Part shown: one piece after another, positions 81 through 62,841 of the stretch
Layout of the letters: the number at the start of each line of letters is the position of its first letter
Position numbering within the stretch: position 1 is the stretch's first letter
Assembly: GCF_014196835.1 (NCBI RefSeq)
Contig: NZ_JACIEK010000011.1
Span: 62,001-126,000, forward strand
DNA: 64,000 nt
Origin: Aureimonas pseudogalii
GTDB taxonomy: Bacteria; Pseudomonadota; Alphaproteobacteria; Rhizobiales; Rhizobiaceae
Direction: 5' to 3'
Position numbers and translations under genes: made by a program
The notes under the pieces: model-generated
What the model was told of the DNA's origin: nothing
Database searches by the model: none
What the model saw: only the letters and a program-made list of their open reading frames with translations

Positions 81-980
81 TCAGTCCTCCAGCCGTTCGT
101 AGATGTTCCCGCGGATGAGGCGTAGCGGCAGCTTGCCCGAGCGCGTCGTGTCGGAATGCCCGAGGATGAGGAGACCGCCCGGCCGCAGATGCCGGCAGAG
201 CTTGGCGACGACGTCGTGCTGCACCTGCGGCTCGAAGTAGATGAGGACGTTGCGCAGGAAGATGATGTCCATCTTCGTCTTCACGCGGTACTCGGCATGC
301 ATCAGATTGATCTGGCCGAAGGTGACGCGGCCGCGCAGCTCCGGCGAGACGCGCACCGCGTCGGAGTCGGGATCGCGCGAGCGCAGGAGATAGCGCTCCT
401 GCAGCGCCGCCGGCACCGGCGCCACGTCCTCGGTGCGGTAGATCGCCTCGCGCGCCGCCGTCAGGATCTTCACCGAGATGTCGGTGGCGAGGATCTGCCA
501 GTCCCACTGGCGCGACTGGGAGGCGACAGCGTCGAGCACCATCGCCAGCGTGTAGACCTCCTGGCCCGACGAGCAGGCCGCGCTCCAGGCGCGCAGGGTG
601 CGCCCGTCGCCGTTCTGAACGAGGCGCTTCAGCTCGGCCTCGTTCAGGTGGTCGAAATGGGCGCGCTCGCGAAAGAACGAGGTCTCGTTCGTCACCACCG
701 TGTCGACGAAGGACTGCATTTCCTGCGCGGCGCCCGCGGGGGTTTGCAGCAGGCGCAGGTAGCTCTCGAAGTCGGGGAGCCCGGTGACCTGCAGCCGGCG
801 ACGCAGCCGCGTCTCGAGCATGGTCTTCTTGATGCGCGAGAGCGAGACGCCGCAGCTCGTGTAGACGAGCCGCACGAGGACGTCGAACGTCTGGTCGGAG
901 AGCTCCACCCGCGTCCACTGGGGAATAGCGTCGGAGGGGGCCGAGACCGGCGGCTTGAGGGCTGCGGAGACCTGGGCCAT
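81..980 (-). CDS. cheR: CheR chemotaxis protein methyltransferase (left cluster)
   Basis: This 299-residue protein transfers methyl groups from S-adenosylmethionine to glutamates of chemoreceptors, the adaptation step opposed by CheB. It has an N-terminal helical domain (about residues 20-90) and a Rossmann-type methyltransferase domain. The SAM-binding loop reads WSAACSSGQEVYTLAM (canonical CheR has ACSTGEEPYS), and the family signature FLRNVLIYFE is intact near the C-terminus, followed by the late motif GGLLILGHSD. The start is the ATG at 978-980; reading further upstream in the same frame gives only low-complexity arginine-rich sequence overlapping cheW. It lies five bases after the upstream cheW stop and four bases before cheB, so it is part of the minus-strand operon. 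The SSGQE variant of the SAM loop is slightly unusual but conservative. Confidence 0.92.
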   Translation of the reverse strand: MAQVSAALKPPVSAPSDAIPQWTRVELSDQTFDVLVRLVYTSCGVSLSRIKKTMLETRLRRRLQVTGLPDFESYLRLLQTPAGAAQEMQSFVDTVVTNETSFFRERAHFDHLNEAELKRLVQNGDGRTLRAWSAACSSGQEVYTLAMVLDAVASQSRQWDWQILATDISVKILTAAREAIYRTEDVAPVPAALQERYLLRSRDPDSDAVRVSPELRGRVTFGQINLMHAEYRVKTKMDIIFLRNVLIYFEPQVQHDVVAKLCRHLRPGGLLILGHSDTTRSGKLPLRLIRGNIYERLED

Positions 981-985
981 GAGGC

Positions 986-1498
986 TTACGCCGCGCGCGC
1001 AGGCGCGGCGCCGTCGAGGCGCCCGAACAGCTGCTCGATGCGCAGCAGCGTCAGGAACGCCTCCTTGCGCCGGCCGAGCCCCTGCATGAAGTCGTTGTTC
1101 CAGGTCTCGCCGACATGCGGCGGGGCTTCGAGCGTCTGGTCGGAGAGGTCGGCCACCTCGTGCACGGCGTCGGCGATGACGGCCACCGTGTGGTGGCGGG
1201 CGTCGGCCTCGAACTCGAGCACCACGATGCGGGTGTCGGGGCCGATCTCGCGATGCTCGCTCGCGGCCATCGCCAGCTTGGCCTTGAGATCGACCACCGG
1301 CACGCCGACGCCGCGCACGTCGATCATGCCGAGAAGGCTCGCCGGCGCGTTGGCCATCGGCTGTATGGGCTTGTAGTCGAGGACCTCGCGCACCTGCCGC
1401 ACGTTCACCGCGAAGTCGCCCGAGCCGAGCTGGAAGGTGAGCATCTCGCTGCCCTCGTCCGGATCGGCCTCGGCGGAGGGTTGGAAGTGTTGGCTCAT
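986..1498 (-). CDS. cheW: CheW coupling protein (left cluster, second copy)
   Basis: A 170-residue single-domain CheW that bridges receptors and the CheA kinase in the membrane-bound signalling array. The CheW fold is visible throughout: FQLGSGDFAVNVRQVREVL near residue 25, the surface motif LLGMIDVRGVGVPVVDL around residues 55-75 (canonical N-x-R-G-x-x-x-P-v-x-d-L) and a C-terminal MQGLGRRKEAFLTLLRIEQL helix. The usual asparagine of the LINxRG motif is replaced by aspartate (MIDVRG). It is the second of two adjacent cheW genes, 87 bases downstream of the first, and the two differ strongly in sequence, so this is not a recent tandem duplication. Two CheW proteins in one cluster suggest that this array has a coupling protein and an additional adaptor, or uses two receptor classes. 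Confidence 0.9.
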   Translation of the reverse strand: MSQHFQPSAEADPDEGSEMLTFQLGSGDFAVNVRQVREVLDYKPIQPMANAPASLLGMIDVRGVGVPVVDLKAKLAMAASEHREIGPDTRIVVLEFEADARHHTVAVIADAVHEVADLSDQTLEAPPHVGETWNNDFMQGLGRRKEAFLTLLRIEQLFGRLDGAAPARAA

Positions 1499-1585
1499 GA
1501 TCGGTCCCCGGAACGGCGAAGGGTTGGGAAGGCGTGGGACGAAGGGTGGACGGTCTGGGCGCCAAGAGGGCCCGAAGGCGCGCCG

Positions 1586-2053
1586 TCAGGCGTCGTCGAG
1601 CAGGCGCTCGACGTCGAGGAGCACCACGAAGCGGTCGCCCTGGCGCACCACGCCCTCGAGATAGCGGCTCGGCCAGCGCGAGCCGTATTCGGGCATCGCC
1701 GACACGTCGCTCTCGCGCACGTGGATCACCTCGTAGACCGCGTCGGTCTTGATCGCGACCTGGAAGGTCTCGCCGGCGGCGGTGGAGACCTCCGACACGA
1801 TCACCCGGCTCGTCGGGGTGTCGTCGGCCCGCGCCATGCCGAAGCGGGCGCGAAGATCGACGAGCGGCAGCACGTTGCCGCGCACGTTGATGAGGCCGGG
1901 CGCGAAGGGCGGCGCGTTGGGAATGCGCGTCATCGGCGGCGGATCGAGCACCTCGTGCACGAGCGCCACCTTCAGCCCGAAGAGGTCGTCGCCGAGCGCG
2001 ACCGTGAGGTAGTCCTCGAGGGAGGTGTCGGTGGTTTCGATGGCGAGCGACAT
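1586..2053 (-). CDS. cheW: CheW coupling protein (left cluster, first copy)
   Basis: A 155-residue CheW-fold protein. It starts with YLTVALGDDLFGLKVALVHEVL (about residues 15-36), then carries the coupling motif LINVRGNVLPLVDLRARFG (about residues 63-81), which matches the CheW consensus including the asparagine and arginine, and ends with the helix GDRFVVLLDVERLL. It should dock to the P5 domain of CheA and to receptor tips. The gene follows cheA by 13 bases on the minus strand and is followed by a second, divergent cheW. Its motif is closer to the family consensus than that of its neighbour, so this is probably the main coupling protein of the left cluster. The start is the ATG at 2051-2053, preceded by a weak AAGG. 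Confidence 0.9.
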   Translation of the reverse strand: MSLAIETTDTSLEDYLTVALGDDLFGLKVALVHEVLDPPPMTRIPNAPPFAPGLINVRGNVLPLVDLRARFGMARADDTPTSRVIVSEVSTAAGETFQVAIKTDAVYEVIHVRESDVSAMPEYGSRWPSRYLEGVVRQGDRFVVLLDVERLLDDA

Positions 2054-2066
2054 GGGAATCGGACCT

Positions 2067-4115
2067 TCAGGCTGCGACGCGGGCGTCGAGGCGCGGCTGG
2101 GCCGCGTGCCGGGCGAGCGGATTGACGTCGAGGATGAGCGCGACGGAGCCGTCGCCGAGGATGGTGGAGCCGACGAGGCCGGGCGTGCGGGCGTGCAGCG
2201 GCGACAGCGGCTTGATCACCGTCTGGTGCTGGCCGACCACCTGGTCCACCACGACGCCGAGCTTGCCGGTGTCGCTCTCGGTGACCACCACGATCGTGCC
2301 GCGGTTCGGCGTGCCGAAGACGTCGTCCATCCACAGGAGCGGCACAAGCGTGCCGCGGATGTCGACGAAGTTGCGCCCTGCCGAGGCGCGCGATTCCACC
2401 GCCGAGAGCTCGACGCATTCCTCGACGCTGGTGAGCGGCAGGATGCACTGGGTCTCGCCGACGGCGACCTGCAGCCCGTCGATGATGGCGAGGGTGAGCG
2501 GCAGGCGCAGCGTGAAGCGCGTGCCCTCGCCCGGCCGGGTGTCGATGTCGATCGAGCCGTGCAGCTCGTTGATCGTGCGCTTGACGACGTCCATGCCGAC
2601 GCCGCGGCCCGAGAGGTTGGAGACGGCCGCCGCGGTGGAGAGACCGGGATGGAAGATCAGCTCGTCGATCTCCCGGTCGGTCGGCACGGTGCCCTCGGCA
2701 ACGATGCCGGAGGCGATCGCCTTCTCGAGGATGCGCTCGCGGTTGAGCCCGGCGCCGTCGTCGTCGATGGTGATCACCACCTCGGTGCCGGCCTGGCGGG
2801 CGCCGAGGCGCAGCGAGCCGCGCTTGGACTTGCCGGCGCTCGCGCGGCGCTCGGCCGATTCGATGCCGTGGTCGATCGAGTTGCGGATGATGTGGACGAG
2901 CGGGTCGCCGAGACGGTCGAGCACGGTCTTGTCGAGCTCGGTCTCCTCGCCGGTGAAGGTGAGGTCGATCTCCTTGCCGAGGTCGGAGGAGAGATCGCGC
3001 ACGACGCGCCGGTAGCGACCGAAGAGCTGCTCGATCGGCACCATGCGCATGCCCATCGCGCTATCGCGCAGATCGGCCGACAAGCGCTCGATCTCCTCGG
3101 CCACCGTGGTGAGCACGGGATCGTGGCGGTTGCGGGCGAGCGCCGAGAGGCGGGCCTGCGCGATCACCAGTTCGCCCACCTGGTCGAGCAGCATGTCGAG
3201 GCGCGAGGCGGAGACGCGCACATGGGCTTCGGCGCGCGCGTCCTGGCCCTTGGCCTCGGGCGCCTCGGCCTTCGCGGCGTCGGCCTTCGCGGCGGCGGGC
3301 TTGGGGGCCTCGGCCTTCAGCGCGGCGGCGACGACGGCCGGAGCGGCGGCAACCGGAGCGGGGGCGGCAGCGGCAGCCGGAGCGGGGGCCACTGAGGCGT
3401 CCGCGTCGATCTCCTCGATCACCACGGCGTCGGGGCCGTCGACGAAGATGAACACGTCGTCGATCGCCGAGCGCGGCGCGGCGGTGTCGAGCAGGATCGT
3501 CCAGCCGAGATGGAGGTCGGTGGGAACGAGATCCTCGATCGGGGGAAGCTGCGAGACGTCGGCGGCGACCGTGAGGGGGCCGAGGTCGCGCAGCTCGTCG
3601 AGCAGCGCCAGCGGGTTGGTTCCGAAGGCGAGCGCCGAGCGCTCGAGGCGCAGTGCGATGCGGAAGCGGCGCGCCATCGCCGAGACGGGGGGCGCGGCGG
3701 CGGGCTGGGCGGCGGCGGGCGACGAGCCGGCGGCGGCCGGTGCGCCGTCCACCTCGGCGATCAGCGCCTTGGCGAGCCGGGTGCTCTCGGCGGAATGGTC
3801 GCCGTCGGCCTCGAACAGCAGCTTGCGGATCTGGTCGGCCGACTGGAGAAGCAGCGAGACGAGCGCCGGGGTCACCGGAGCGTGGTCCTGGCGCACCTTC
3901 TCGAAGGCGTTTTCGAGCTCGTGGGCGAAGGCGGCCATCGCGGGCGGGCCGAACATGCCGCCCGACCCCTTCAGGGTGTGCAGCGCGCGGAACGTCGTGT
4001 TGACGAGCTCGCGGTCGTTCGGGCGCTTCTCGAGATCGAGGAGCGCGGCCTCGAGCTGCTCCAGGAGGTCGCGCGCCTCGTTGAGGAAGGTCTCGATGAT
4101 GTCGCCGCCCATCAT
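2067..4115 (-). CDS. cheA: CheA chemotaxis histidine kinase (left cluster)
   Basis: A 682-residue CheA that autophosphorylates on a histidine in response to receptors and passes phosphate to CheY and CheB. The P1 Hpt domain is at the N-terminus with the phospho-acceptor in RALHTLKGSGG (His46). A variable region of about residues 130-300 would hold the CheY-binding part and an Ala/Pro/Lys-rich linker. The P3 dimerisation helices (VGELVIAQARLSAL) follow. The P4 ATPase shows the N box HIIRNSIDHG, the G1 box DDDGAGLN and the G2 box SGRGVGMDVVK, and P5 is a CheW-like domain at the C-terminus. Two methionines start the frame (4113 or 4110); either fits. cheY ends two bases upstream and cheW follows by 13 bases. 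All catalytic boxes are intact. Confidence 0.95.
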   Translation of the reverse strand: MMGGDIIETFLNEARDLLEQLEAALLDLEKRPNDRELVNTTFRALHTLKGSGGMFGPPAMAAFAHELENAFEKVRQDHAPVTPALVSLLLQSADQIRKLLFEADGDHSAESTRLAKALIAEVDGAPAAAGSSPAAAQPAAAPPVSAMARRFRIALRLERSALAFGTNPLALLDELRDLGPLTVAADVSQLPPIEDLVPTDLHLGWTILLDTAAPRSAIDDVFIFVDGPDAVVIEEIDADASVAPAPAAAAAPAPVAAAPAVVAAALKAEAPKPAAAKADAAKAEAPEAKGQDARAEAHVRVSASRLDMLLDQVGELVIAQARLSALARNRHDPVLTTVAEEIERLSADLRDSAMGMRMVPIEQLFGRYRRVVRDLSSDLGKEIDLTFTGEETELDKTVLDRLGDPLVHIIRNSIDHGIESAERRASAGKSKRGSLRLGARQAGTEVVITIDDDGAGLNRERILEKAIASGIVAEGTVPTDREIDELIFHPGLSTAAAVSNLSGRGVGMDVVKRTINELHGSIDIDTRPGEGTRFTLRLPLTLAIIDGLQVAVGETQCILPLTSVEECVELSAVESRASAGRNFVDIRGTLVPLLWMDDVFGTPNRGTIVVVTESDTGKLGVVVDQVVGQHQTVIKPLSPLHARTPGLVGSTILGDGSVALILDVNPLARHAAQPRLDARVAA

Positions 4116-4117
4116 GA

Positions 4118-4486
4118 TCAGGCCCCGATCAGCTTGTTGACGACGGCGACCAGCTTGGCCTGGTCGAACGGCTTGACGATCCAGCCGGTGGCGCCAGCGG
4201 CCTTGCCTTCCATCTTCTTCGTCTCGTCCGACTCGGTGGTCAGCATGACGATCGGGATGCCGGCATGCTGGGGCATCTCGCGCACCTTGCGGATCATGCC
4301 GATGCCGTCGAGATTGGGCATGTTCAGATCGGTGATGATGAGCTGGTACTTGTTCTGGTCCAGCTTGGTGATCGCATCGGCGCCGTCGACGGCGGTGTCG
4401 GGGGCATAGCCTGCGCTCTCGAGCGTGAAGGAGACCATCTGCCTCACGCTGGCGGAGTCATCGACGCAAAGTACGGATTTCGCCAC
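4118..4486 (-). CDS. cheY: CheY single-domain response regulator (left cluster)
   Basis: A 122-residue receiver protein with no output domain. It has the acidic pair in LCVDDSASVR, the phosphorylatable aspartate in IITDLNMPNLDG (Asp53), the conserved Thr in MLTTESDETKK and the Lys-Pro pair in GWIVKPF. It accepts phosphate from CheA; whether it binds the flagellar motor, another target, or acts as a phosphate sink cannot be read from the sequence. The start is taken as GTG at 4484-4486 because an AAGGTG ribosome-binding sequence lies just upstream; another in-frame GTG nine bases further upstream overlaps that site. Its TTESDxxKK and KAAGATGWIVKPF segments closely resemble the cheY at 7853-8218, which holds the same position next to cheA in the right cluster, so these two are probably paralogues. 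Confidence 0.93.
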   Translation of the reverse strand: MAKSVLCVDDSASVRQMVSFTLESAGYAPDTAVDGADAITKLDQNKYQLIITDLNMPNLDGIGMIRKVREMPQHAGIPIVMLTTESDETKKMEGKAAGATGWIVKPFDQAKLVAVVNKLIGA

Positions 4487-4550
4487 GGACTTCACCTTTC
4501 TGGATTCGGGGAAGAAAAGAAGACGGGGGGGAGAGGCGGCAGGCCGGCGG

Positions 4551-4832
4551 TCAGGACACGGCCGGAAGGGGGGCGCCGCAGCGCTCGAACAAAGCGCGGA
4601 CCGCCTCCGAGGCGGTGGCGGTGAGCCGGCGGCCGGAGGCCGCGAGCGAGACGTCGAGCGACAGGAGAAGCTGCACGAAGCCGACGTCGGCGGCGCCGAC
4701 GCCGCCCATGTCGAGATGCAGCACGCCATCGACCGTTTCGCCGGCGGCACGCATGAGATCCTCCCGCAGGACGACCAGTCCCGACAGGTCGTAGGATCCG
4801 TCGAGCACGAGATGGGCAGCAGGTGAGGTCAT
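4551..4832 (-). CDS. STAS-domain protein heading the left chemotaxis cluster
   Basis: A predicted protein of 93 residues made of one STAS domain, the fold of anti-sigma-factor antagonists: a strand LVLDGSYDLSGLVVL, a helix with RRAAGETVDGVLHLD-like spacing, and the segment AADVGFVQLLLSL where SpoIIAA has its D-S-S-G phosphorylation loop. The serine is replaced (ADVG), so it is unlikely to be controlled by serine phosphorylation. It is the first gene of the left cluster and ends 64 bases before cheY. A STAS gene also precedes cheY and cheA in the right cluster, which suggests a role at the CheA-CheY step. The start chosen is ATG 4830-4832 because the STAS strand begins directly after it; an upstream in-frame start at 4868 would add 12 residues. 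No strong ribosome-binding site is visible for either. Confidence 0.78.
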   Translation of the reverse strand: MTSPAAHLVLDGSYDLSGLVVLREDLMRAAGETVDGVLHLDMGGVGAADVGFVQLLLSLDVSLAASGRRLTATASEAVRALFERCGAPLPAVS

Positions 4833-5304
4833 GGATCGGGTTTCCGTCACATCGATTGGATCGCACACTGGCCCAAACAGATTGCGGCGCGGTTAAAGCT
4901 GCGAAGTTTAAACGACGGAACTGGCAAGTCTCTTGCCGCCGCACCGCCGGGGCGACAAGTCGTGCTATAGAAGAACGCCGCGCCGCATCCGGTCCGCCCG
5001 TCGGCGCGACCTTGCGTTGCAACGAGCGACGGACGGTGCCCGCCCCGCGGCAGCCGACCCGCCGGCGTTTTCCGTTCGTTATGCTTACCAGTCTTTCTCG
5101 TGGCAGCCGGCATCAAGTAGAGCTTGCGCCTGGTTCCACCTCGATACCGACGTTCTAACTAAATTTTATAAGTTAGAAGTCTAAATGGCGGAACTGCCGG
5201 AGAGATCGGTCGATCCGCCCCCGTTGCCGGGCGTGCCGCGACGATCCCTCCGAAGCCCACCCGTCCAGCCACGTGGCACCGGCGCCGCGTCCTTCGGAGA
5301 CGTC
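4833..5304. promoter_or_regulatory. Divergent control region between the two chemotaxis clusters
   Basis: This 472-base stretch has no convincing gene. It must carry promoters for both clusters. It contains two AT-rich patches, unusual for this genome: one around 4890-4915 with two TTAA tetramers and one at 5153-5178 with an inverted repeat. A short perfect palindrome GGCAAG-TCT-CTTGCC lies at 4923-4937. A TATAGA hexamer at about 4966 could be a -10 element but has no clear -35 partner. No GTAA/GCCGATAA-type flagellar sigma promoter was recognised with confidence. Confidence 0.55.
5153..5178. promoter_or_regulatory. AT-rich inverted repeat upstream of the receptor gene
   Basis: Two 8-base arms, TTCTAACT (5153-5160) and AGTTAGAA (5171-5178), form a perfect inverted repeat around the 10-base core AAATTTTATA. 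The whole 26-base element is almost purely A and T at its centre in a genome of very high GC. It ends 126 bases before the receptor start codon. The form fits a binding site for a dimeric regulator or an AT-rich promoter. No ribosome-binding or coding feature explains it. Confidence 0.5.
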
Positions 5305-7275
5305 ATGTCCGCGATCCAGAATCTCGCCCTCTCGCGAAAGCTCATGCTGGCCTTCGCCGTCATGGTCTGTGCCACGGCCGGCTTGGGCGGCCTCGTCGTC
5401 CATGAGCTCGGCGCGATCGACACGGTCCGCGAGGCCGGCCGCACGGCCACCGCCCGCCTCGACGCGCTCTCCGTGCTCGGCGAGCGTCTGGCGGCGCGCG
5501 AGACCGCGGCGGCGGCGGTGCTGCGCCCGGCGGCCGATCCCGAAGCGGCGGCGCGCCTCGCCGGTGCCAACGCCGCGGTCGCCCGTGCCCTGGCCGAGCT
5601 TCCGGCGGAGGGCGTCGACGCCACCGAGACGTCGCGCCTCGCCCGTCTCGGCACGCTCGACGCCGACTACCGCGGCGAGACCGATGACATCGCCCGCCGG
5701 CTCGCCGCGCCGCAGACCCGCGCCGAGGCCGAAAAGGCACTCGCCGCCTCCCGCGGACAGGCGGCGATGCTCTCGCTCACCGGGGCGTTGGCCGAGACGG
5801 CGCGCGCCGAGCGGCAAGCCGCCTCCACGGCCATCGACGTCGCCTACGGCCGGCTCCCGTCGATCGTGATCGCCTGCGTCCTCGGCTCGCTGGCCCTCGC
5901 CGGCCTTCTCTGCCTCCTGCTCGTTCGCGGCATCGCGGCCCCCGTGCGCCACGTGGCCGAAGCGCTGACGAAGCTTTCGGCGGGCGACGCCGACGTGACG
6001 CTGAAGATGCTCGGCCGGCGCGACGAGATCGGCAGGATGGCCGCCGCGCTCGACGTCTTCCGCCAGAACCTCCTCGCCAACCGCTCGCTCGAGGCCGAGG
6101 CCGCCAAGGTCCATGCCGCCAGCCTCGCAGAGCACGCCCGCGCCGAGGACGAGCGCGAGAGCATCGCCGCCGACCAAGCGCTGGTGGTGGACGCCCTCGA
6201 GGAAGCGCTGACGCGCATGTCGTCGGGCGACCTCACCGCCCGCATCTCCACCCCCTTCCCCGGCCGCTACGCTCGCCTCGGCGACGAGTTCAACAAGGCC
6301 GCCGCGCATCTCCACGACATGGTCGGGCGCGTCGCCGCCTCGGTCTCCTCGATCGCCAACGGCACGAACGAGATCGGCCACGCCTCGGACGACCTGTCGC
6401 GCCGCACCGAGCAGCAGGCCGCCAGCCTCGACAAGACCGCCTCGGCGCTCGGCGAGATCACCGCCACCGTCAAGCACTCGGCCGAGAACGCCGCCTCGGT
6501 CGCCTCCTCCGTCGCCACCGCCCGCCAGGACACCGAGCGCTCGGGCGAGGTGATGCTCGAGGCGGTGGCGGCGATGACCGCGATCCAGAAGTCCTCGCAG
6601 CAGATCGCCCGCATCATCGGCGTGATCGACGAGATCGCCTTCCAGACCAACCTCCTCGCCCTCAATGCCGGCGTCGAGGCGGCGCGGGCGGGCGATGCCG
6701 GTCGCGGCTTCGCGGTGGTGGCGCTCGAGGTGCGGGCGCTCGCCCAGCGCTCCTCGGAGGCCGCCAAGGAGATCAAGACGCTGATCGGCGCCTCCTCCAC
6801 GCAGGTCGGCAACGGCGTCGACCTCGTCAACCGCTCCGGCGAGGTGCTCACCCGCATCGCCGCTCAGGTCACCCAGATCGACGCCCTGGTGCAGGAGATC
6901 GCCGGCTCGGCGCGCGAGCAGTCGATCGGCATCGCCGACGTCAACGACGCCGTCAACAAGATGGACCGCGTCACCCAGCAGAACGCCGCGATGGTGGAGG
7001 AGACCACCGCCGCGACCCTCTCGCTGCGCACCGAGACCGAGGAACTCGGCCGCCTCGTCGCCAGCTTCCGCGTCGACACGACCGACCTCGCGGTACAGCA
7101 ACTTCGCGGCGTCGCGGCCGTGATGAAGACGCCGGCGGCGAGCGCGCCCCGCGCTGCCGTCCCGTCCCCCGTCCAGGCACACGCCCCGACCTCGCCGATC
7201 GCCGCCCCGCGTGCGAGCGCGGCCGCGGCTCCCGCAACCGCCGCCGCCGAAGAGCTCGGCTGGGAGGAGTTCTGA
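5305..7275 (+). CDS. Methyl-accepting chemotaxis protein with C-terminal CheR/CheB tether (GWEEF)
   Basis: A 656-residue membrane chemoreceptor. Transmembrane segment 1 is at about residues 14-34 and segment 2 at about 185-208, enclosing a periplasmic domain of about 150 residues that is mostly helical and alanine-rich. A HAMP domain follows (about 209-262), then a second HAMP-like segment (about 290-345) and the signalling hairpin, whose tip contains DEIAFQTNLLALNAGVEAA. The protein ends with GWEEF after a long Ala/Pro linker, which fits the x-aromatic-x-x-aromatic pentapeptide that recruits CheR and CheB in enteric receptors (NWETF). The ATG at 5305 is chosen because GGAGA lies six bases upstream; starting at 5185 would add 40 residues without a membrane anchor. 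It heads the right cluster and its stop overlaps the next start (TGATG). The ligand is unknown. Confidence 0.93.
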   Translation: MSAIQNLALSRKLMLAFAVMVCATAGLGGLVVHELGAIDTVREAGRTATARLDALSVLGERLAARETAAAAVLRPAADPEAAARLAGANAAVARALAELPAEGVDATETSRLARLGTLDADYRGETDDIARRLAAPQTRAEAEKALAASRGQAAMLSLTGALAETARAERQAASTAIDVAYGRLPSIVIACVLGSLALAGLLCLLLVRGIAAPVRHVAEALTKLSAGDADVTLKMLGRRDEIGRMAAALDVFRQNLLANRSLEAEAAKVHAASLAEHARAEDERESIAADQALVVDALEEALTRMSSGDLTARISTPFPGRYARLGDEFNKAAAHLHDMVGRVAASVSSIANGTNEIGHASDDLSRRTEQQAASLDKTASALGEITATVKHSAENAASVASSVATARQDTERSGEVMLEAVAAMTAIQKSSQQIARIIGVIDEIAFQTNLLALNAGVEAARAGDAGRGFAVVALEVRALAQRSSEAAKEIKTLIGASSTQVGNGVDLVNRSGEVLTRIAAQVTQIDALVQEIAGSAREQSIGIADVNDAVNKMDRVTQQNAAMVEETTAATLSLRTETEELGRLVASFRVDTTDLAVQQLRGVAAVMKTPAASAPRAAVPSPVQAHAPTSPIAAPRASAAAAPATAAAEELGWEEF

Positions 7276-7853
7276 TGTCCGGTCTGCCGCAAGCCCCCGC
7301 GCAAGACGATCTCGTGGTGTCCCTGCCGCCCGAGATCCTGGCGATGATGGCCTCCTACGAGACGCCCGCCGCCGATGAGGCGGCCGTCGATGAAACCACC
7401 CTCGACGAGGCCTCGAACGGCGAGTCCCCTGCCGCGACCCTGTCCGCCGACCAGCCTTCGAGCTTCGGCTCCGAAGCCGGCGATCTCGATGCTTCCGCCG
7501 ACGCCGACGCCGACGCGGGACCAACGGGCGACGAGGCCGGAGCGCCCCTCCCCGCCTCCATCGTCTCGGGCGAGGCCGGCGAGACGCTGACGCTCGCGCC
7601 CGTTCTCGACATCACCGCCGCCGCGGCGCTCCACGCCGAGCTTCTCGCCCGGCGCGGCGCCCCGCTCGGCCTCGATGCGGCCGAGGTGCGCCGCCTCGGG
7701 GGCCAGTGCCTGCAGCTGCTCGTCTCGGCTCGCAAGACCTGGGAAGCGGACGGGCTGGCGCTGACCCTCACCGCGACGTCGCCGGCCTTCGAGCGCGATC
7801 TCGCGCTTCTGGGCTGCAGCGCCGCCGACCTGACCCAGAGCGAGGCCGCGTGA
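7275..7853 (+). CDS. STAS-domain protein in the CheS position
   Basis: A 192-residue protein with an acidic, low-complexity N-terminal half (about residues 20-100, rich in Asp, Ala, Glu) and a C-terminal STAS domain (about 104-186: LTLAPVLDITAAAALHAEL then LDAAEVRRLGGQCLQLLVSA). The serine phosphorylation loop of SpoIIAA-type proteins is not preserved (RLGG in its place). The start overlaps the receptor stop (TGATG) and its own stop overlaps the next cheY in the same way, so the three are translated together. In Sinorhizobium meliloti the gene in this slot encodes CheS, which as I recall associates with CheA and speeds CheY1 dephosphorylation. A CheS-like role is inferred from position only. 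The long acidic extension is unusual for a STAS protein of this kind. Confidence 0.8.
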   Translation: MSGLPQAPAQDDLVVSLPPEILAMMASYETPAADEAAVDETTLDEASNGESPAATLSADQPSSFGSEAGDLDASADADADAGPTGDEAGAPLPASIVSGEAGETLTLAPVLDITAAAALHAELLARRGAPLGLDAAEVRRLGGQCLQLLVSARKTWEADGLALTLTATSPAFERDLALLGCSAADLTQSEAA

Positions 7854-8218
7854 TGACGAAGACCATCCTGACGATCGACGATTCGCGCACGATGCGCGAG
7901 CTGCTGCGCGCCGCGCTCGACAAGGCCGGCTTCCACGTCATCCAGGCCGAGGACGGCCTGCACGGGCTGGAGGTGCTGCGCGCCTCCGAGCCCGACGTGA
8001 TCATCACCGACATCAACATGCCCCGCATGAACGGGCTGGAGTTCATCGAGGCGGTGCGCGTCGACGAGACGCGCCGCGCCATCCCGATCATCGTGCTCAC
8101 CACCGAGAGCGACGCCGCCAAGAAGGACCGCGCCCGCAAGGCCGGCGCCACCGGCTGGATCGTCAAGCCCTTCGACCCGGTGAAGCTCGTCTCCGCCATC
8201 AACCGCGTCGTCGCCTGA
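7853..8218 (+). CDS. cheY1: CheY1-type single-domain response regulator (right cluster, before cheA)
   Basis: A 121-residue receiver domain: acidic pair in LTIDDSRTMR, phospho-acceptor Asp53 in IITDINMPRMNG, Thr in VLTTESDAAKK and Lys-Pro in GWIVKPFDP. It lies between the STAS gene (1-base overlap) and cheA (14 bases). In rhizobial operons of this order the cheY before cheA is CheY1, which drains phosphate from CheA instead of acting on the motor; that role is assumed from synteny. It is much more similar to the left-cluster cheY at 4118-4486 than to the second cheY of its own operon (12900-13292), as seen in the shared TTESD and KAGATGWIVKPF segments. Confidence 0.93.
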   Translation: MTKTILTIDDSRTMRELLRAALDKAGFHVIQAEDGLHGLEVLRASEPDVIITDINMPRMNGLEFIEAVRVDETRRAIPIIVLTTESDAAKKDRARKAGATGWIVKPFDPVKLVSAINRVVA

Positions 8219-8232
8219 AGGACCTGCCGATC

Positions 8233-10503
8233 ATGAGCGCTTTGGACGAGATCCGCGTCGTCTTCTTCCAGGAATGCGACGAACAGCTCCAGGAGCTGGA
8301 GGACGGCCTCACCGCGATGAGCGAAGGCCAGACCGACGACGACACCGTGAACCGCGTCTTTCGCGCGGTGCATTCGATCAAGGGGGGCGCGGGCGCCTTC
8401 GACCTGACCAAGCTCGTCAAGTTCGCCCACGTCTTCGAGACCGTGCTCGACGAGGTGCGCTCGCACCGGCTCGTCGCCGGCGACGCCGTGATGCCGGTGA
8501 TGCTGCGCTCGGCCGACCATCTGCGCGACATGGTGGCTGCGGGCCGCGACGGCGCGGAAGGCGACCTCGCGCGCTCGAAGGAGCTGATCGACGAGCTGGA
8601 GGCGCTGATCGGCGGCCCGAAGGGCGGCCATGACGACGAGGAGGGCGCCGACGAGGACGGCGGCATGGCGCTCGCCGATTTCGAGTTCACGCCGGTGGCG
8701 GTGGACTGGTCGGCCATGGGCCTCGACACCGGCTTCGACGGGGGCTTCGGTGCAGGAGCCGCGCCGGCGCTCGGCGAGGACGGCCCGGCCGTGCGCATCG
8801 CCTTCAAGCCGCATCGCGACCTCTATGCCAAGGCCAACGAGGCGACGGTGCTGCTGCGCGAGGTCTCCGCGCTCGGCGAGGCGACGATCGCCTGCGACAC
8901 GTCCGAGGTTCCGCTCCTCGACACGATCGACCCGGAGGGCGCCTATCTCTCCTTCGCGATCGACCTCGACGGCGACGAGGTGAGCGAGGCCAAGGTTCGC
9001 GAGATCTTCGAATTCGCCGAATGGGACTGCGACCTCACGGTCACCGCCCGTGCCGGCGCGATGCCCGAGATCGACCTCGCCGCGCTCGGCGACGCCGGCG
9101 GCATCTCGGTGGCCGACCTCCTGGCGCGCCTGCAGAACGAGATCGTGACGGAGGGCGACGCGCCCGCGAGCGACGCGGCGCCCCCCTCCCCTGCCCCAAC
9201 CCCGACCAAGGCGCCTGCCCCCGCCCCGGCCGAGAAGGCCGAGCCCGGCGAAAAGTCGGAGAAGGCCGAGGGCGAGAGCGCGGCCAAGGCCGAGGCGCCG
9301 GCCGCCGTCATCCGCGTCGAGCTGCACCGCGTCGACAAGCTGATCGATCTCGTCGGCGAACTCGTGACGACGCAGACCATGCTCGCCCAGAAGGTCGAGG
9401 AGGCCGGCCTCCCGACGGGCTCCGAGGTCGTCTCCTCGATCGAGGAGCTCGACCGGCTGACCCGCACCCTGCAGGACAGCGTGATGGCGGTGCGCGCCCA
9501 GCCCGTGAAGTCGGTGTTCCAGCGCATGCCGCGCCTCGTGCGCGAGGTGGCGGCCGCCACCGGCAAGAAGGTCGCCTTCGTCTCGAAGGGCGAGAACACC
9601 GAGGTCGACAAGACCGTGGTGGAGCGCCTCTCCGACCCGCTCACCCACATGATCCGCAACGCCATCGACCACGGGCTCGAGAAGCCCGAGGACCGCGTCG
9701 CCAAGGGTAAGCCGGCCGAGGGCACGGTGACCCTCTCGGCCGCACACCGCTCGGGCCGCATCATCATCGAGATCTCCGACGACGGCGCCGGCATCAACCG
9801 GCCGAAGGTCAAGCAGATCGCCATCGACAAGGGCCTCATCGCCGCCGACGCCATCCTCTCCGACGAGGAGACCGACCAGCTGGTGATGCTGCCGGGCTTC
9901 TCCACCGCCACCACCGTCTCGGCGATCTCGGGCCGGGGCGTCGGCATGGACGTCGTGAAGCAGTCGATCGAGGCGCTCGGCGGGCGTCTCGCCATCGCCT
10001 CGCGGCCGGGGCTCGGCTCCTCCTTCACCATGAGCCTGCCCCTGACGCTCGCCGTCCTCGACGGGATGATCGTCAAGGTCGGCGAGGAGACGCTGGTGGT
10101 GCCGCTCTCGGCCATCGTCTTCACCTTCCGCCCGCAGGCCGAGGAGCTGCAGGCGCTCGGGCACGGGCGCACCGTCCACGTGCGCGACGCCATCGTGCCG
10201 CTGATCGACGTCGGCGTGGAGCTCGGCTTCCGCGCCGAGCCGGCCGACCCGCTGACCTCCGTCGCCATTCTCGTCGACGTCGACAACAACCGGCGCATCG
10301 CGCTTCTCGTCGACGAGATCCGCGGCCAGCGGCAGGTGGTCATCAAGAGCCTCGAGAAGAACTACCGACCGGTGGCCGGCATCTCGGCGGCGACGATCTC
10401 GGGCGAGGGGCGCGTCGCGCTCATCGTCGACGTCGACGCCATGGCCGGCGAGCGCACGCTCGACGGCTTCATCTTCGGCATCGAACAGGTCGCGGCGGAG
10501 TAG
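8233..10503 (+). CDS. cheA: CheA chemotaxis histidine kinase (right cluster)
   Basis: A 756-residue CheA. The P1 Hpt domain has its phospho-histidine in RAVHSIKGGAGAF (His47). A region of about residues 130-300, ending in a Pro/Ala/Lys-rich linker, separates it from the P3 dimerisation helices (LIDLVGELVTTQTMLAQ). The ATPase domain shows the N box HMIRNAIDHG, the G1 box SDDGAGIN and the G2 box SGRGVGMDVVK, and a CheW-like P5 domain ends the protein. All catalytic boxes are present. It differs widely from the left-cluster CheA outside these boxes and is 74 residues longer, so the two kinases probably serve separate arrays. An AAGGA sequence 11 bases upstream serves the ATG at 8233, and cheW follows after six bases. 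Confidence 0.96.
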   Translation: MSALDEIRVVFFQECDEQLQELEDGLTAMSEGQTDDDTVNRVFRAVHSIKGGAGAFDLTKLVKFAHVFETVLDEVRSHRLVAGDAVMPVMLRSADHLRDMVAAGRDGAEGDLARSKELIDELEALIGGPKGGHDDEEGADEDGGMALADFEFTPVAVDWSAMGLDTGFDGGFGAGAAPALGEDGPAVRIAFKPHRDLYAKANEATVLLREVSALGEATIACDTSEVPLLDTIDPEGAYLSFAIDLDGDEVSEAKVREIFEFAEWDCDLTVTARAGAMPEIDLAALGDAGGISVADLLARLQNEIVTEGDAPASDAAPPSPAPTPTKAPAPAPAEKAEPGEKSEKAEGESAAKAEAPAAVIRVELHRVDKLIDLVGELVTTQTMLAQKVEEAGLPTGSEVVSSIEELDRLTRTLQDSVMAVRAQPVKSVFQRMPRLVREVAAATGKKVAFVSKGENTEVDKTVVERLSDPLTHMIRNAIDHGLEKPEDRVAKGKPAEGTVTLSAAHRSGRIIIEISDDGAGINRPKVKQIAIDKGLIAADAILSDEETDQLVMLPGFSTATTVSAISGRGVGMDVVKQSIEALGGRLAIASRPGLGSSFTMSLPLTLAVLDGMIVKVGEETLVVPLSAIVFTFRPQAEELQALGHGRTVHVRDAIVPLIDVGVELGFRAEPADPLTSVAILVDVDNNRRIALLVDEIRGQRQVVIKSLEKNYRPVAGISAATISGEGRVALIVDVDAMAGERTLDGFIFGIEQVAAE

Positions 10504-10509
10504 AGACCC

Positions 10510-10974
10510 ATGTCCCAGACGGTTCGCAAGAGCACCACACAGGGCACCGAGATGGTGGCCTTCCGCGTCGGCCCGCAGGAGTTCTGCGTCGACATCAAGG
10601 CGGTCCGCGAGATCCGGGGCTGGACCCCGGCCACCACGCTGCCGCACGCGCCGCACTATATTCTCGGCGTCATCAACCTGCGCGGCACCGTGCTGCCGGT
10701 GGTCAACCTCGCCGCCCGGCTCGGCCTGCCCGTGGATCCCCCGACGCCGCGCCACGTCATCGTGGTGGTGGCGGCCGAGGACCAGGTCTTCGGGCTCCTC
10801 GTCGACGCCGTCTCCGACATCCTCTCCGTCAGCCCCGAGCTGATGCAGGGCGCGCCGGACCTGGCGCAGGACTCGGCCAAGGCCTTCGTCTCGGCGGTGG
10901 TGGCGATCGAGGACCGGATGATCGCCCGCATCATGCCCGAGCGCATGCTGCCCGAGCGGATGCGCCTGTCGTGA
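10510..10974 (+). CDS. cheW: CheW coupling protein (right cluster)
   Basis: A 154-residue CheW. It begins with a short basic tail and VAFRVGPQEFCVDIKAVREI, then the coupling motif YILGVINLRGTVLPVVNL (about residues 51-68), which matches the family consensus, and a C-terminal helix. It links CheA to receptor tips. The gene sits six bases after cheA, and its stop overlaps the cheR start in the sequence GTGA, a sign of translational coupling. As the only CheW in the right cluster it is expected to work with the receptor and CheA of the same operon. Confidence 0.94.
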   Translation: MSQTVRKSTTQGTEMVAFRVGPQEFCVDIKAVREIRGWTPATTLPHAPHYILGVINLRGTVLPVVNLAARLGLPVDPPTPRHVIVVVAAEDQVFGLLVDAVSDILSVSPELMQGAPDLAQDSAKAFVSAVVAIEDRMIARIMPERMLPERMRLS

Positions 10975-11834
10975 CCGCCGCGGCGGCGGCCAGCCGTCCG
11001 GCCGCCGCCGACGATGGCGGGCTGTCGCCGGCCGCGTTCGAGCGCATCGCCGGGATCATCCGGGCGGAGGCCGGCATCCATCTCGACGACGCCAAGGCCT
11101 CGCTCGTCTACGCGCGCCTCGTGAAGCGACTGAAGGCGCTGGGGATGACCTCGTTCGAGCGCTATTGCGACCTCGTGCAGTCGGCGGCGGGCGCGGTGGA
11201 GCGCCCGCTCATGGTCGAGGCGCTGACCACGAACTACACGTTCTTCCTGCGCGAGCCGCACCATTTCGAGCATTTCGCAGAGACCGCCCTGCCCGGGCTC
11301 GCGGCGCGCGCGGCGGCGGGCGGGCGGGTGCGGATCTGGAGCGCCGGCTGCTCGATGGGGCACGAGACCTATTCCATCGCCCTGCGCCTTCTCGAGCGGA
11401 TGCCCGACGCCGGGCGTCACGACATCCGCATCCTCGCCACCGACATCGACCGCAACGTGCTGGCGACGGCGCGCGCCGGGCGCTACGACGCGGCCACCCT
11501 GAAGGTGCTGACGCCGGCCGATCTCGACCGCGGCTTCCGCGCGGCGGGACCGGACCTCTTCGAGGTGCGCCCCGAACTGCGCGAACTCGTCGCCTTCCAC
11601 GAGCTCAACCTCCTGTCGGACTGGCCGATGCGCGGCACGTTCGACGTCGTGTTCTTCCGCAACGTCGCGATCTATTTCGACCAGGGCGTGCGCGAGGCGA
11701 TCTGGCTGCGCATGGCCGAGCGGATGCCGGCGGGCGGCTGGCTCTATGTCGGCCATTCCGAGCGCATCACGGGCGAGCCCGCCGCGCTCTTCTCGCACGC
11801 GGCCAACACCACCTACCGACGGCTCGCCGGATGA
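10971..11834 (+). CDS. cheR: CheR chemotaxis protein methyltransferase (right cluster)
   Basis: A 287-residue SAM-dependent methyltransferase that methylates receptor glutamates. The N-terminal domain (about residues 15-90) contains FERIAGIIRAEAGIHL, and the SAM loop is RIWSAGCSMGHETYSIAL in the place of the canonical ACSTGEEPYS. The signature VFFRNVAIYFD is present and the late motif GGWLYVGHSE follows. The start is GTG at 10971, overlapping the cheW stop; its own stop overlaps the cheB start (ATGA). The GHE in place of GEE in the SAM loop is a mild deviation. The receptor at the head of this operon ends in GWEEF, the sort of peptide to which CheR binds, so local tethering of this enzyme is plausible. 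Confidence 0.94.
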   Translation: MTAAAAASRPAAADDGGLSPAAFERIAGIIRAEAGIHLDDAKASLVYARLVKRLKALGMTSFERYCDLVQSAAGAVERPLMVEALTTNYTFFLREPHHFEHFAETALPGLAARAAAGGRVRIWSAGCSMGHETYSIALRLLERMPDAGRHDIRILATDIDRNVLATARAGRYDAATLKVLTPADLDRGFRAAGPDLFEVRPELRELVAFHELNLLSDWPMRGTFDVVFFRNVAIYFDQGVREAIWLRMAERMPAGGWLYVGHSERITGEPAALFSHAANTTYRRLAG

Positions 11835-12883
11835 GTCCGACGCGCGTTCTCATCATCGACGATTCGCCGACCATGCGACTTCTCATCGGCAGGGCGCTGC
11901 GCGAGGCCGGCGACATCGAGATCGTGGGTGAGGCCGGAGACGCGTTCGAGGCCCGCAAGCAGATCAAGATGCTCGATCCCGACGTGGTGACGCTCGACGT
12001 CGAGATGCCGGGCATGCGGGGGATCGACTTTCTCGAGAAGATCATGCGGCTTCGCCCGATGCCCGTGGTGATGGTCTCCAGCCAGACCGGGCCGGGCACC
12101 TCGGCGGCGATCGAGGCGCTCGCCATCGGCGCCTTCGACTGCTTCGCCAAGCCGCGCCGCGCCAACGACGACGCCTTCAACGCCCTCGCCGGCACGGTGC
12201 GTCTCGCCGCCCAGTCGCGGCACAGGCTGGCGGCCGTCTCGGCCCGGCGCAACGACGCGCTCGCGGCCCCGCCAAAGCGCACCGGCGCCGCCAGCGCTGG
12301 CACGGCGCACGCACCGGGCCGCCGGCGGCCCGCCGCGATCGGCATCGGCGCCTCCACCGGCGGCATCGAGGCGCTGACGGCGCTCTTCGCCGACTGGCCG
12401 CCGGACTGCCCGCCCACCTTCGTCGTGCAGCACCTGCCCGCCGGCTTCACCCGCGGCTTCGCCCAGCGCCTCGCCCGGTCCTCGCCGGTGCGGGTCGTGG
12501 AGGCCGAGGACGGCATGCCGATCGAGACGGGCACCGTGTATCTGGCGCCGGGCGGCATCCGCCACCTGATGGTGGTCGGCGCCTCGCCCGTCTGCTCGCT
12601 GGTGGAGGCCGCGCCCGTCAGCGGTCATCGCCCCTCCGTCGACGTTCTCCTCCATTCGCTCGCCCGCCGTTTCGGAAAATCCACCCTCGGGATCGTTTTG
12701 ACGGGCATGGGAAGCGATGGAGCACACGGTGCTTTGGAGATTCGTAAGAGTGGAGGGTGGACAATAGGCCAGAACGAACAGTCCTCCCTGGTCTATGGGA
12801 TGCCGAAAGCCGCCTTCAACTTGGGCGCGATCGACGAACAACTCGCTCTCGAAAGCATTTCAAACGCCGCCTTTGGCGCCTGA
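11831..12883 (+). CDS. cheB: CheB protein-glutamate methylesterase/glutaminase
   Basis: A 350-residue CheB with a receiver domain (acidic pair in LIIDDSPTMR, phospho-Asp56 in VTLDVEMPGM) joined by a linker of about 40 residues to the methylesterase domain. The catalytic triad is visible: Ser175 in GIGASTGG, His201 in VVQHLP and Asp296 in TGMGSDG, with spacing like that of the Salmonella enzyme. Phosphorylation by CheA relieves inhibition by the receiver and lets the enzyme demethylate receptors. It overlaps cheR by four bases. The N-terminal sequence differs from that of the fragment at 1-76, so the two CheB proteins are distinct. The last 60 or so codons have a lower GC content than the rest but keep the frame and the domain. 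Confidence 0.95.
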   Translation: MSPTRVLIIDDSPTMRLLIGRALREAGDIEIVGEAGDAFEARKQIKMLDPDVVTLDVEMPGMRGIDFLEKIMRLRPMPVVMVSSQTGPGTSAAIEALAIGAFDCFAKPRRANDDAFNALAGTVRLAAQSRHRLAAVSARRNDALAAPPKRTGAASAGTAHAPGRRRPAAIGIGASTGGIEALTALFADWPPDCPPTFVVQHLPAGFTRGFAQRLARSSPVRVVEAEDGMPIETGTVYLAPGGIRHLMVVGASPVCSLVEAAPVSGHRPSVDVLLHSLARRFGKSTLGIVLTGMGSDGAHGALEIRKSGGWTIGQNEQSSLVYGMPKAAFNLGAIDEQLALESISNAAFGA

Positions 12884-12899
12884 ACCTGAAAGAACAGCC

Positions 12900-13292
12900 A
12901 TGTCGCTGACCAAGCAAACGATCAAGATCCTGATCGTCGACGACCAGACCACGAGCCGGCTGCTCATGCGGGACGCGCTCCAGCAGATCGGCTTCGCCAA
13001 CATTCCCTTCGCCAAGGACGGCGAAGAGGCGTTGAAGATGATGATGTCGAGCCCCGCCCACATCGTCATCTCCGACTACAACATGCCCAAGCTCAACGGG
13101 CTGCAGCTGCTGCAGGCGATCCGCACCTTCCCCGCGACGCGCATCACGCCCTTCATCCTGCTCACCGGCTCGGGAGACCGCACGGTGCTGCAGCAGGCGG
13201 TGAAGCTCGGGGTCAACAACTACCTGCCCAAGCCCGTGCAGCCGGCGGCCCTGCAGAAGGCGATCCAGGCGGTCACCGGCAACATTCAATGA
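12900..13292 (+). CDS. cheY2: CheY2-type response regulator, probable motor regulator
   Basis: A 130-residue receiver domain: acidic pair in LIVDDQTTSR, phospho-acceptor Asp59 in VISDYNMPKLNG, Thr in ILLTGSGDR and Lys-Pro in YLPKPVQP. The sequence is distinct from the other two CheY proteins in the window. Its place between cheB and cheD is that of CheY2 in rhizobial operons, where CheY2 acts on the flagellar motor; that function is inferred from position. It starts 17 bases after cheB with a weak AAAGAA upstream, and its stop overlaps the cheD start (ATGA). Confidence 0.93.
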   Translation: MSLTKQTIKILIVDDQTTSRLLMRDALQQIGFANIPFAKDGEEALKMMMSSPAHIVISDYNMPKLNGLQLLQAIRTFPATRITPFILLTGSGDRTVLQQAVKLGVNNYLPKPVQPAALQKAIQAVTGNIQ

Positions 13293-13822
13293 GCACAGTG
13301 CAGGCGGAGACCCGGGTCCATGTCGGAGAGGGCGAGACGCGCATCGAAAGCGACGCGCATCTCGTGCTGACCACCGTTCTGGGCTCGTGCGTGGCCGCCT
13401 GCATCTTCGATCGCACGGCCCGCACCGGGGGCATGAACCACTTCCTGCTTTCGGGCGAGGGCGGCACCGGGGCGGGCGCGGCCGAGCGCTACGGCGCCTT
13501 CCTCATGGAGGTGCTGGTGAACGGGCTGCTGGCGCGCGGCGCCAAGCGCGGACGCCTCGAGGCCAAGCTCTTCGGGGGGTCGCGCATCGGCGCGACGCGC
13601 GGCGACATCGGCGAGGCCAACGCCACCTTCGCCAAGGGCTTCCTGGCGATGGAGAACATCCCGCTCCTCGGCGGCAGCCTCGGCGGCACGAGCGCGCGGC
13701 GCGTCGAGTTCTGGCCGACGAGCGGGCGGGCCCGCCAGATCGCGCTCGCCAACGAGCCGCCGCCCCCGGCGCCGCCGCCGCGCCCGGCGCTCGCCGACCT
13801 CGGCGAGGTCGAGTTCTTCTAG
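13289..13822 (+). CDS. cheD: CheD chemoreceptor glutamine deamidase
   Basis: A 177-residue CheD, which deamidates receptor glutamines and can bind CheY-type partners. The catalytic Cys34 is in LGSCVAAC and the catalytic His51 in GGMNHFLL, with the 17-residue spacing known for the Thermotoga enzyme (Cys27/His44). The conserved KLFGGSRI and the C-terminal strand RRVEFWPTSGRARQI are also present. After the domain comes a proline-rich linker and the end LADLGEVEFF, an acidic-hydrophobic tail that most CheD proteins do not need for the fold. The start overlaps the cheY2 stop. The tail is described further under findings. Confidence 0.95.
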   Translation: MSTVQAETRVHVGEGETRIESDAHLVLTTVLGSCVAACIFDRTARTGGMNHFLLSGEGGTGAGAAERYGAFLMEVLVNGLLARGAKRGRLEAKLFGGSRIGATRGDIGEANATFAKGFLAMENIPLLGGSLGGTSARRVEFWPTSGRARQIALANEPPPPAPPPRPALADLGEVEFF

Positions 13823-13953
13823 AGTTCGCCGCCGGACCGGAGATCTCCTCCCCCCGGCCGCCCGCCCGTCTTTTCGCGGTTCGCGCACGCCGGGCTCCAT
13901 TCCCGGCGCGCGCGAACCCATCTCATTCTCCACCCGCCGCCGGAGACGACCCC

Positions 13954-14307
13954 ATGAGCGATGACGCCCTGCCCGCAACCACCCCCGGCCAGCTTCTGGA
14001 GCGGATCAGCGCCGAGCTCGCCCGTCAGGCCGACGCCGTGCGCTCGCTGCACGCCCTGACGGACGGCGCCGAGACACCGGAGGCGGTGCGGCTCGCGCAG
14101 ACGATCGACACGGCCTCGCAGGTTCTCGACGAGATCGCCGGCCTGCTCGGGGCTCTCGCGCCGCCCCCCGGCGCCGCGCCGGACGCGCCGATGCGCGATC
14201 CCGCGCCGCTTGCCGAAAACGTGCGTCTCTCCGAGCTGCGGCGCACGCTGTTCGATCCCGGCGCCGAGGCGGCCCCGGACACGGACGGCGACCTCGATCT
14301 CTTCTGA
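13954..14307 (+). CDS. Small CheT-like protein with CheZ-type DxxxQ motif
   Basis: A 117-residue protein, the last gene of the right chemotaxis operon, 131 bases after cheD with GGAGA ahead of the ATG. Residues 12-68 look mostly helical and contain TIDTASQVLDEI, in which Asp52 and Gln56 form the D-x-x-x-Q motif of CheZ-type CheY phosphatases (Escherichia coli CheZ has Asp143/Gln147 in a similar setting). After a proline-rich stretch comes a short helix and the C-terminal tail DTDGDLDLF, which recalls the acidic-hydrophobic CheY-binding tail of CheZ. In S. meliloti the gene after cheD encodes CheT, reported with a DxxxQ motif and activity on CheY1-phosphate. Homology is inferred from position, size and motif; overall sequence similarity was not tested. 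Confidence 0.65.
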   Translation: MSDDALPATTPGQLLERISAELARQADAVRSLHALTDGAETPEAVRLAQTIDTASQVLDEIAGLLGALAPPPGAAPDAPMRDPAPLAENVRLSELRRTLFDPGAEAAPDTDGDLDLF

Positions 14308-61900: not shown

Positions 61901-62841
61901 GCGACGAGGGCGAGGATCCGATGGACCACGAGGTCGAGGACGAAGGCGCGCCCGAGCCGAGCGCCGCGTCGTTCACGCTGCGCGGCACGGCGTTTTCGGC
62001 GCACAAGCCCGAGCCCGGGCTCTATCTCGTGGCGACGCCGATCGGCAACCTCGCGGACATCACGGTGCGGGCGCTCGACGTCATCGCTTCCGCCGACCGG
62101 CTGGCCTGCGAGGACACGCGCGTCACCGCGAAGCTCTTGGCGCGCTACGGCATCCGGCGGCGGATGACGCCCTATCACGAGCACAATGCAAAGGAGGCGG
62201 GCGAGGCGCTGCTCGCCGATCTCGACGCCGGCCTTTCGGTGGCGCTTGTGTCGGACGCGGGCACGCCGATGGTCTCCGACCCCGGCTTCCGGCTCGGCGA
62301 GGAGGCGATCGCGCACGGGATCCCCGTGTATCCGATCCCCGGCGCCTCGGCGCCGCTCGCCGCGCTCCTCGCCTCCGGCCTGCCGTCCGACGCCTTCTTC
62401 TTCGCCGGCTTCCCTCCGCCCAAGGAGACGGCACGGCGCCAGCGGTTCCAGGCGCTGGCGCGGGTGCCGGGCACGCTGATCTTCTTCGAGGCGCCGCATC
62501 GCATCGCCGAGAGCCTCGCCGACATGGCCGATGTCTTCGGGCCCCGCCCGGCGGCGGTGTGCCGCGAGCTGACGAAGGCCTACGAGACGATCTATCGCGG
62601 GCCCCTGCCCGATCTCGCGACACGCTTCGCGGCCATGGAGCGGGTACGCGGCGAGATCGTCGTCTGCGTCGGCCCGCCGGCGGAAGCGGCGGACAGCGCA
62701 CCGGCTGACGTCGATGCGATTCTCAGAGGTCTGCTCGCCGAGATGAAGCCGGCAAAGGCCGCGCAGGAGGCGGTGAAGCTGACGGGGCTTTCGCGCCGCG
62801 ATCTCTACCAGCGCGCGCTGCAGTTGAAATCGGGCGCCTGA
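61897..62841 (+). CDS. rsmI: RsmI 16S rRNA C1402 2'-O-methyltransferase
   Basis: A 314-residue SAM-dependent enzyme that methylates the ribose of C1402 in the ribosomal decoding centre. The tetrapyrrole-methylase fold shows [53 protein letters not shown] and [18 protein letters not shown]. An acidic N-terminal extension of about 38 residues, with [14 protein letters not shown], precedes the core and is not found in Escherichia coli RsmI. The start ATG overlaps the ynfA stop. yraN follows after 40 bases. Confidence 0.95.

Follow-up and report, generated by a model that had tools for sequence, protein, structure and literature searches.

A likely divergent CheT ortholog at the end of a chemotaxis operon of Aureimonas pseudogalii, with a C-terminal peptide of a type also carried by CheD

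The window, a stretch of 64,000 nucleotides from Aureimonas pseudogalii (positions 62,001 to 126,000 of contig NZ_JACIEK010000011.1), contains the main chemotaxis operon, which Pfam matches and inspection of the reading frames resolve into the order mcp-cheS-cheY1-cheA-cheW-cheR-cheB-cheY2-cheD-cheT, all on the forward strand. It begins with a chemoreceptor (5185-7275; PF00015) whose C-terminal pentapeptide is GWEEF, followed by a STAS-domain protein in the cheS position (7275-7853; PF13466, E 1.3e-11), by cheY1 (7853-8218), whose frame was read and aligned and which is by position the counterpart of S. meliloti CheY1, and by cheA (8233-10503; Pfam), cheW (10510-10974; PF01584), cheR (10971-11834; PF01739), cheB (11813-12841; PF01339 and PF00072), cheY2 (12795-13292, start probably 12900; PF00072, E 2e-25) and cheD (13289-13822; PF03975, E 6.6e-20), the product of which ends in GEVEFF (codons 13802-13819). 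Last in the operon and directly after cheD, which is the operon place of CheT, lies the cheT-like gene itself (13954-14307, 117 amino acids), encoding a candidate CheY-phosphate phosphatase. The gap of 131 nt between the two genes (13823-13953, forward strand) holds a strong hairpin (13878-13918; fold z-score -4.16) with a long stem and one mismatch, which occurs as a single copy in the window and in the genome and is possibly an attenuator or a processing site; two relatives in the genus (G012 and G016) also have a gap there, of about 200 nt by coordinates. A further chemotaxis cluster on the opposite strand (81-4750) encodes a CheY-like protein, CheA, two CheW proteins and a CheR whose beta-loop is of E. 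coli length, unlike that of the CheR at 10971-11834. The window thus contains the three CheY-like frames of which the preliminary description had spoken, at 7853-8218 and 12795/12900-13292 on the forward strand and within 4118-4750 on the reverse strand (PF00072).

CheT is a small rhizobial protein that helps to switch off the swimming signal, and was reportedly described in Sinorhizobium meliloti in 2024. Translation of 13954-14307 yields exactly the protein announced in the preliminary description, 117 residues encoded after cheD, with D52-T-A-S-Q56 as the candidate catalytic motif (codons 14107-14121, converted from the ORF start at 13954) and DTDGDLDLF at its end. Taken alone, D-x-x-x-Q is not significant, appearing in 37% of 20,000 shuffles of the protein, and the longer Q-x-x-D-x-x-x-Q, which includes Q49 (codon 14098-14100), appears in 1.1% of 20,000; it is conservation among homologues that raises the motif above chance. 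The Asp/Gln pair, on whose presence in homologues the preliminary description had staked its proposal, is indeed there: all 88 distinct sequences compared (89 loci, the window protein included) have Q-x-x-D-x-x-x-Q, a count that took in 34 of the 80 named loci described below, the other 46 lying outside it. Across 26 aligned rows, which extend to further families of the class and down to 21% identity, Q49, D52 and Q56 are the sole positions invariant in all 26. A protein search with the ORF as query found matches in 16 of 61 genomes, host included. The resulting relatives are 35-51% identical to the window protein, and D and Q are kept in all 15 rows that remained once L015 had been excluded from all alignments as an apparently spurious match of 65 residues inside a 556-codon frame with a stop; one of the 15 (L010) runs off its contig end, so that its tail is not readable, and was outside two of the alignments. 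Three near copies were set aside, and D and Q are kept in all three. CheD was found in 18 of 150 genomes of the order by a retrieval anchored on it, and elsewhere in the order, where the preliminary description had suggested looking, 8 more genes directly after cheD carry the same motif. At the level of the class, a profile search, with a profile that already contained the motif, gave matches in at least 8 of 385 genomes, the host among them, which is a lower bound because no more than 11 candidates were scored in any genome.

We consider it likely that the ORF is a divergent CheT ortholog, and this reading, together with the mechanism proposed below, is the best explanation of the data as a whole. 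The preliminary description had presented a CheT-like candidate, and the assignment is borne out by operon position, by the invariant D/Q pair, by the predicted helix in which the pair lies and by a profile match that runs in both directions: two models built free of the host genus placed the window ORF at the top of 692 ORFs (E 3.5e-13 in one, 5.9e-10 in the other), and in the opposite direction a model built from the host genus only ranked the gene of Rhizobium johnstonii 3841 first of 250 ORFs (E 9.7e-11). A model from 30 Rhizobiaceae CheT rows alone did not find the window ORF (E 0.77), scoring a chemoreceptor better (E 0.017), and intermediate sequences are therefore needed to reach it. 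The sequence link to rhizobial CheT runs through the two-way match with R. johnstonii 3841. No Pfam or NCBIfam family matches the ORF at E up to 1, which leaves it without an independent label; a PDB sequence search returned no relative (best E 0.19), and a plasmid collection gave no match for two CheT queries. Rhizobiaceae CheT, reached from the same operon position, has a match in 52 of 151 genomes of the family, and the named loci used here are the best 80 of 308 confirmed, 63 of the 80 being Rhizobium by title.

A review describes S. meliloti CheT as having a DXXXQ motif, acting on one of two CheYs and binding CheR (PMC12654446). The window protein resembles it, as well as A. fabrum Atu0522 and the R. 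leguminosarum protein, in its place after cheD, in D-x-x-x-Q and in size, and further in being unrelated in sequence to CheZ and encoded in an operon with cheS and two cheY genes (PMC12654446). It differs from the Rhizobium type in being only about 21-35% identical to the CheT proteins aligned and in ending in GDLDLF rather than GDFDFF, and the CheR of its operon has a shorter beta-loop. The suggestion that this copy extends the family to another lineage stands in so far as it adds another genus, placed in the same GTDB family as Rhizobium; the extension is a modest one, since CheT homologs outside Sinorhizobium, in R. leguminosarum and others, are already in print (PMC12654446). The position of the gene also varies. 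In a second operon layout, seen at seven loci of the genus, cheT lies directly 5' of cheY1-cheA rather than last in the operon, and at four loci of another family it lies directly after cheY with no cheD between.

An AlphaFold2 model computed from a 35-row alignment has a moderate mean pLDDT of 71.9, falling below 50 in the tail, and predicts helices at residues 11-36, 42-68, 84-89 and 92-100, followed by a disordered tail at 102-117. The prediction includes a helical hairpin whose second helix carries D52 and Q56; that the motif should lie within a helix was a further point on which the preliminary description had made its proposal depend, and residues 42-68 form one helix in the model. Foldseek and VIA-align with the model gave only generic helical hairpins; CheZ was not among the matches listed, which is no evidence against a likeness. 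A review describes the fold of S. meliloti CheT as highly similar to that of CheZ (PMC12654446).

Two other accounts of the ORF can be weighed against these data. High G+C content favors long open frames, and 93 ORFs of at least 80 amino acids overlap the first 22 kb, so that a chance frame deserves mention; orthologs with the conserved residues are found at this position in 14 other genomes of the genus, and also across the family, and given this conservation we reject the chance reading, whose probability is negligible. The other is that the protein is a true but shrunken CheZ, with which it shares D-x-x-x-Q in a helix, an acidic-hydrophobic C-terminus and the same general job. The ORF, however, is matched neither by PF04344 at E up to 1 nor by the CheZ model, an hhalign profile comparison with CheZ found no relation, and its 117 residues compare with 214 for E. 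coli CheZ; membership in the CheZ family is thus highly improbable, and we reject it for want of either a PF04344 match or a profile relation. The statement that Alphaproteobacteria lack a standard CheZ is not supported: of the 150 genomes sampled from the host's order, 95 have a PF04344 match, the host not among them (90 over the cut-off; the controls B. subtilis and E. coli were both matched, one over the cut-off, and a few of the 95 may be spurious). No PF04344 match at E 0.001 was found anywhere in the host genome. Nine genomes, the host being one of them, have cheT after cheD; a PF04344 match occurs in one of the nine (E 2.7e-4) and in 94 of the 141 others (Fisher p 0.0015, on lineages that are not independent and counting only cheT after cheD), so that cheT and CheZ look like alternatives across genomes of the order.

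The last six codons of cheT (14287-14304, forward strand; with the stop, contig 76287-76307) encode GDLDLF, the last part of the ending DTDGDLDLF that the preliminary description had likened to the CheY-binding tail of CheZ. This likeness turns out not to be specific to CheZ, because G-[DE]-hydrophobic-[DE]-[LF]-F also forms the end of CheD; the tail also ends exactly in Phe, as receptor pentapeptides do, and CheY binding is one of two readings. The pattern G-[DE]-[ILVMF]-[DE]-[LF]-F-stop occurs exactly twice in the 5 Mb host genome, once where cheD ends and once where cheT ends, with none in the reversed control. Over 21 genomes of the genus its 25 matches are spread over 14 genomes (3 in the reversed control). 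Of these, 24, in 13 genomes, are ends of cheD or cheT, and the 11.5 kb extracted around the remaining one (G011) contain no che gene. The pattern, blind to the catalytic motif, also exposed a cheT missed by the protein search, in G003, with D-L-L-H-Q inside. A che locus is present in 15 genomes of the genus, and in each of them CheT and CheD terminate in G-x-[VLI]-[DE]-[LFM]-F, with D in CheT and E in CheD at position -3; within genomes the two tails show no strict co-variation. In the 80 named loci CheT ends in GDFDFF (77), GDFDLF (2) or GEFDFF (1) and CheD in IEFF (80 of 80); CheT also keeps the tail in two genomes of the class that have no CheD beside cheT. Altogether 82 of the 89 sequences have this tail, with Phe as their last residue. 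Of the seven that lack the tail as so defined, three show additional residues after the core or an altered end, and four were cut at the match end, their full ends also failing to fit (L068, for example, ends in VSLF). A looser pattern, D-F-[DE]-x-F, was not specific in 12 Rhizobiaceae genomes, partly because TGG passed as a stop. CheD and CheT thus share a peptide type. In the literature searched, on CheT, on CheD with pentapeptide and CheR, and on CheU/CheE, where coverage of subscription papers was limited, we found no description of this shared tail.

A shared peptide suggests a shared docking partner, the candidates being the pentapeptide pocket of CheR or CheB and a CheY, two that we rate about equally. 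In its stronger form the first would make docking rather than catalysis the principal function: CheT, as CheD would, places its tail in the CheR (or CheB) pocket and tunes adaptation, any phosphatase activity being minor. CheD is likewise a receptor-modifying enzyme with the same kind of tail, and binding of CheR by S. meliloti CheT has been reported (PMC12654446). The peptide resembles the receptor pentapeptides NWETF, xWxxF and xFxxF in being acidic, with a hydrophobic residue at position 2 and Phe as last residue, and published pentapeptides carry W in the second and F in the fifth position, their other residues being mostly acidic (PMC7390727). Receptors of class 34H are described with xF/YxxF/Y, the Geobacter consensus being EFEKF (PMC2577667), and Rhizobiaceae CheT tails (GDFDFF in 77 of 80, D-F-E-A-F in several rows) fit this form, GDFDFF of Rhizobium likewise fitting x-[W/F/Y]-x-x-[F/Y]. 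The window tail D-L-D-L-F does not, having Phe at 5 and an aliphatic Leu at 2 instead of an aromatic residue; the tail further differs from the receptor pentapeptide in sitting on CheT and CheD and in using Leu, Val or Ile for Trp or Phe within the genus, and its binding is putative. In the nine of the 80 named loci that were compared, the beta-loop of Rhizobium CheR is as long as that of E. coli and contains a basic G-R-R-[KR] stretch, and the CheR of the left-hand cluster (81-4750) has that length as well, but the loop of the operon CheR is three residues shorter than in E. coli, those of 14 genus relatives are 2 to 4 shorter, and short loops are described as occurring where receptors lack the pentapeptide (PMC3062574). 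Among the 12 host chemoreceptors only that of the operon ends in a pentapeptide of receptor type (GWEEF); nine of the other 11 end in [GD]-F-[EQ]-[KR]-[MR]-S-x, which is not a pentapeptide of this kind. The invariant D/Q pair argues that catalysis matters, and we think it rather unlikely that docking takes precedence, the docking half of the proposal being in itself compatible with a CheT ortholog.

The other candidate makes the tail a CheY-docking peptide, the same kind of peptide being used by CheD to sense CheY-phosphate. FliM carries a CheY-binding motif at its N-terminus, Q-x-E-I-D-A-L-L. The host FliM is divergent, with no obvious CheY-binding peptide at its N-terminus, which speaks for this reading. 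So do the CheZ proteins of the order: of eight examined, six end in [SD]-Q-[DS]-D-I-D-[AS]-L-F-x (e.g. SQDDIDALFD), which resembles G-D-I-D-F-F, and the other two have a similar stretch before a long extension. Some CheD proteins, in turn, end in LFD, one residue past Phe, like those CheZ. On the other hand, the CheZ and FliM core is longer than the tail by one residue, the last residue of the tail is Phe in 82 of the 89 sequences, and no link of alphaproteobacterial CheD to CheY was found in the literature searched. We hold this reading to be rather unlikely to a similar degree, and it too is compatible with the CheT ortholog that we favor.

For the CheT ortholog, the mechanism known for CheZ and S. 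meliloti CheT, in which Asp makes the contact and Gln positions a water, offers an analogy: Asp52 would contact the receiver domain, Gln56 would position a water for hydrolysis of the aspartyl phosphate, and the decay of CheY-phosphate would be sped up by CheT. S. meliloti CheT is said to prefer CheY1. The likeliest substrate would accordingly be CheY1, and the seven genus relatives with cheT directly before cheY1-cheA fit this choice; CheY1 is described as a phosphate-sink regulator (PMC8429497). The disordered 16 residues at the C-terminus, ending in G-D-L-D-L-F, may serve as a docking peptide for a partner shared with CheD, be it the CheR/CheB pentapeptide pocket, with the CheR binding reported for S. 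meliloti CheT in mind, or a CheY. As a tentative extension, to which we give a little less than an even chance, alphaproteobacterial CheD and CheT would carry a common docking peptide, acidic-hydrophobic-acidic-x-Phe-COOH, acting as a pentapeptide mimic or a CheY tag, through which deamidase and phosphatase compete for, or gather on, one partner and so couple signal termination to adaptation.

The gene is in itself an ordinary but well-supported addition to the CheT family, and the tail shared by CheD and CheT may be the part that is new to specialists. The family is widened to sequences too divergent for Pfam, for NCBIfam or for a Rhizobiaceae-only model, and Q-x-x-D-x-x-x-Q together with the tail provides a signature by which unnamed genes after cheD can be annotated. 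If the shared tail binds CheR, the complex reported between CheT and CheR would have a basis, and the removal of phosphate would be linked to receptor adaptation.
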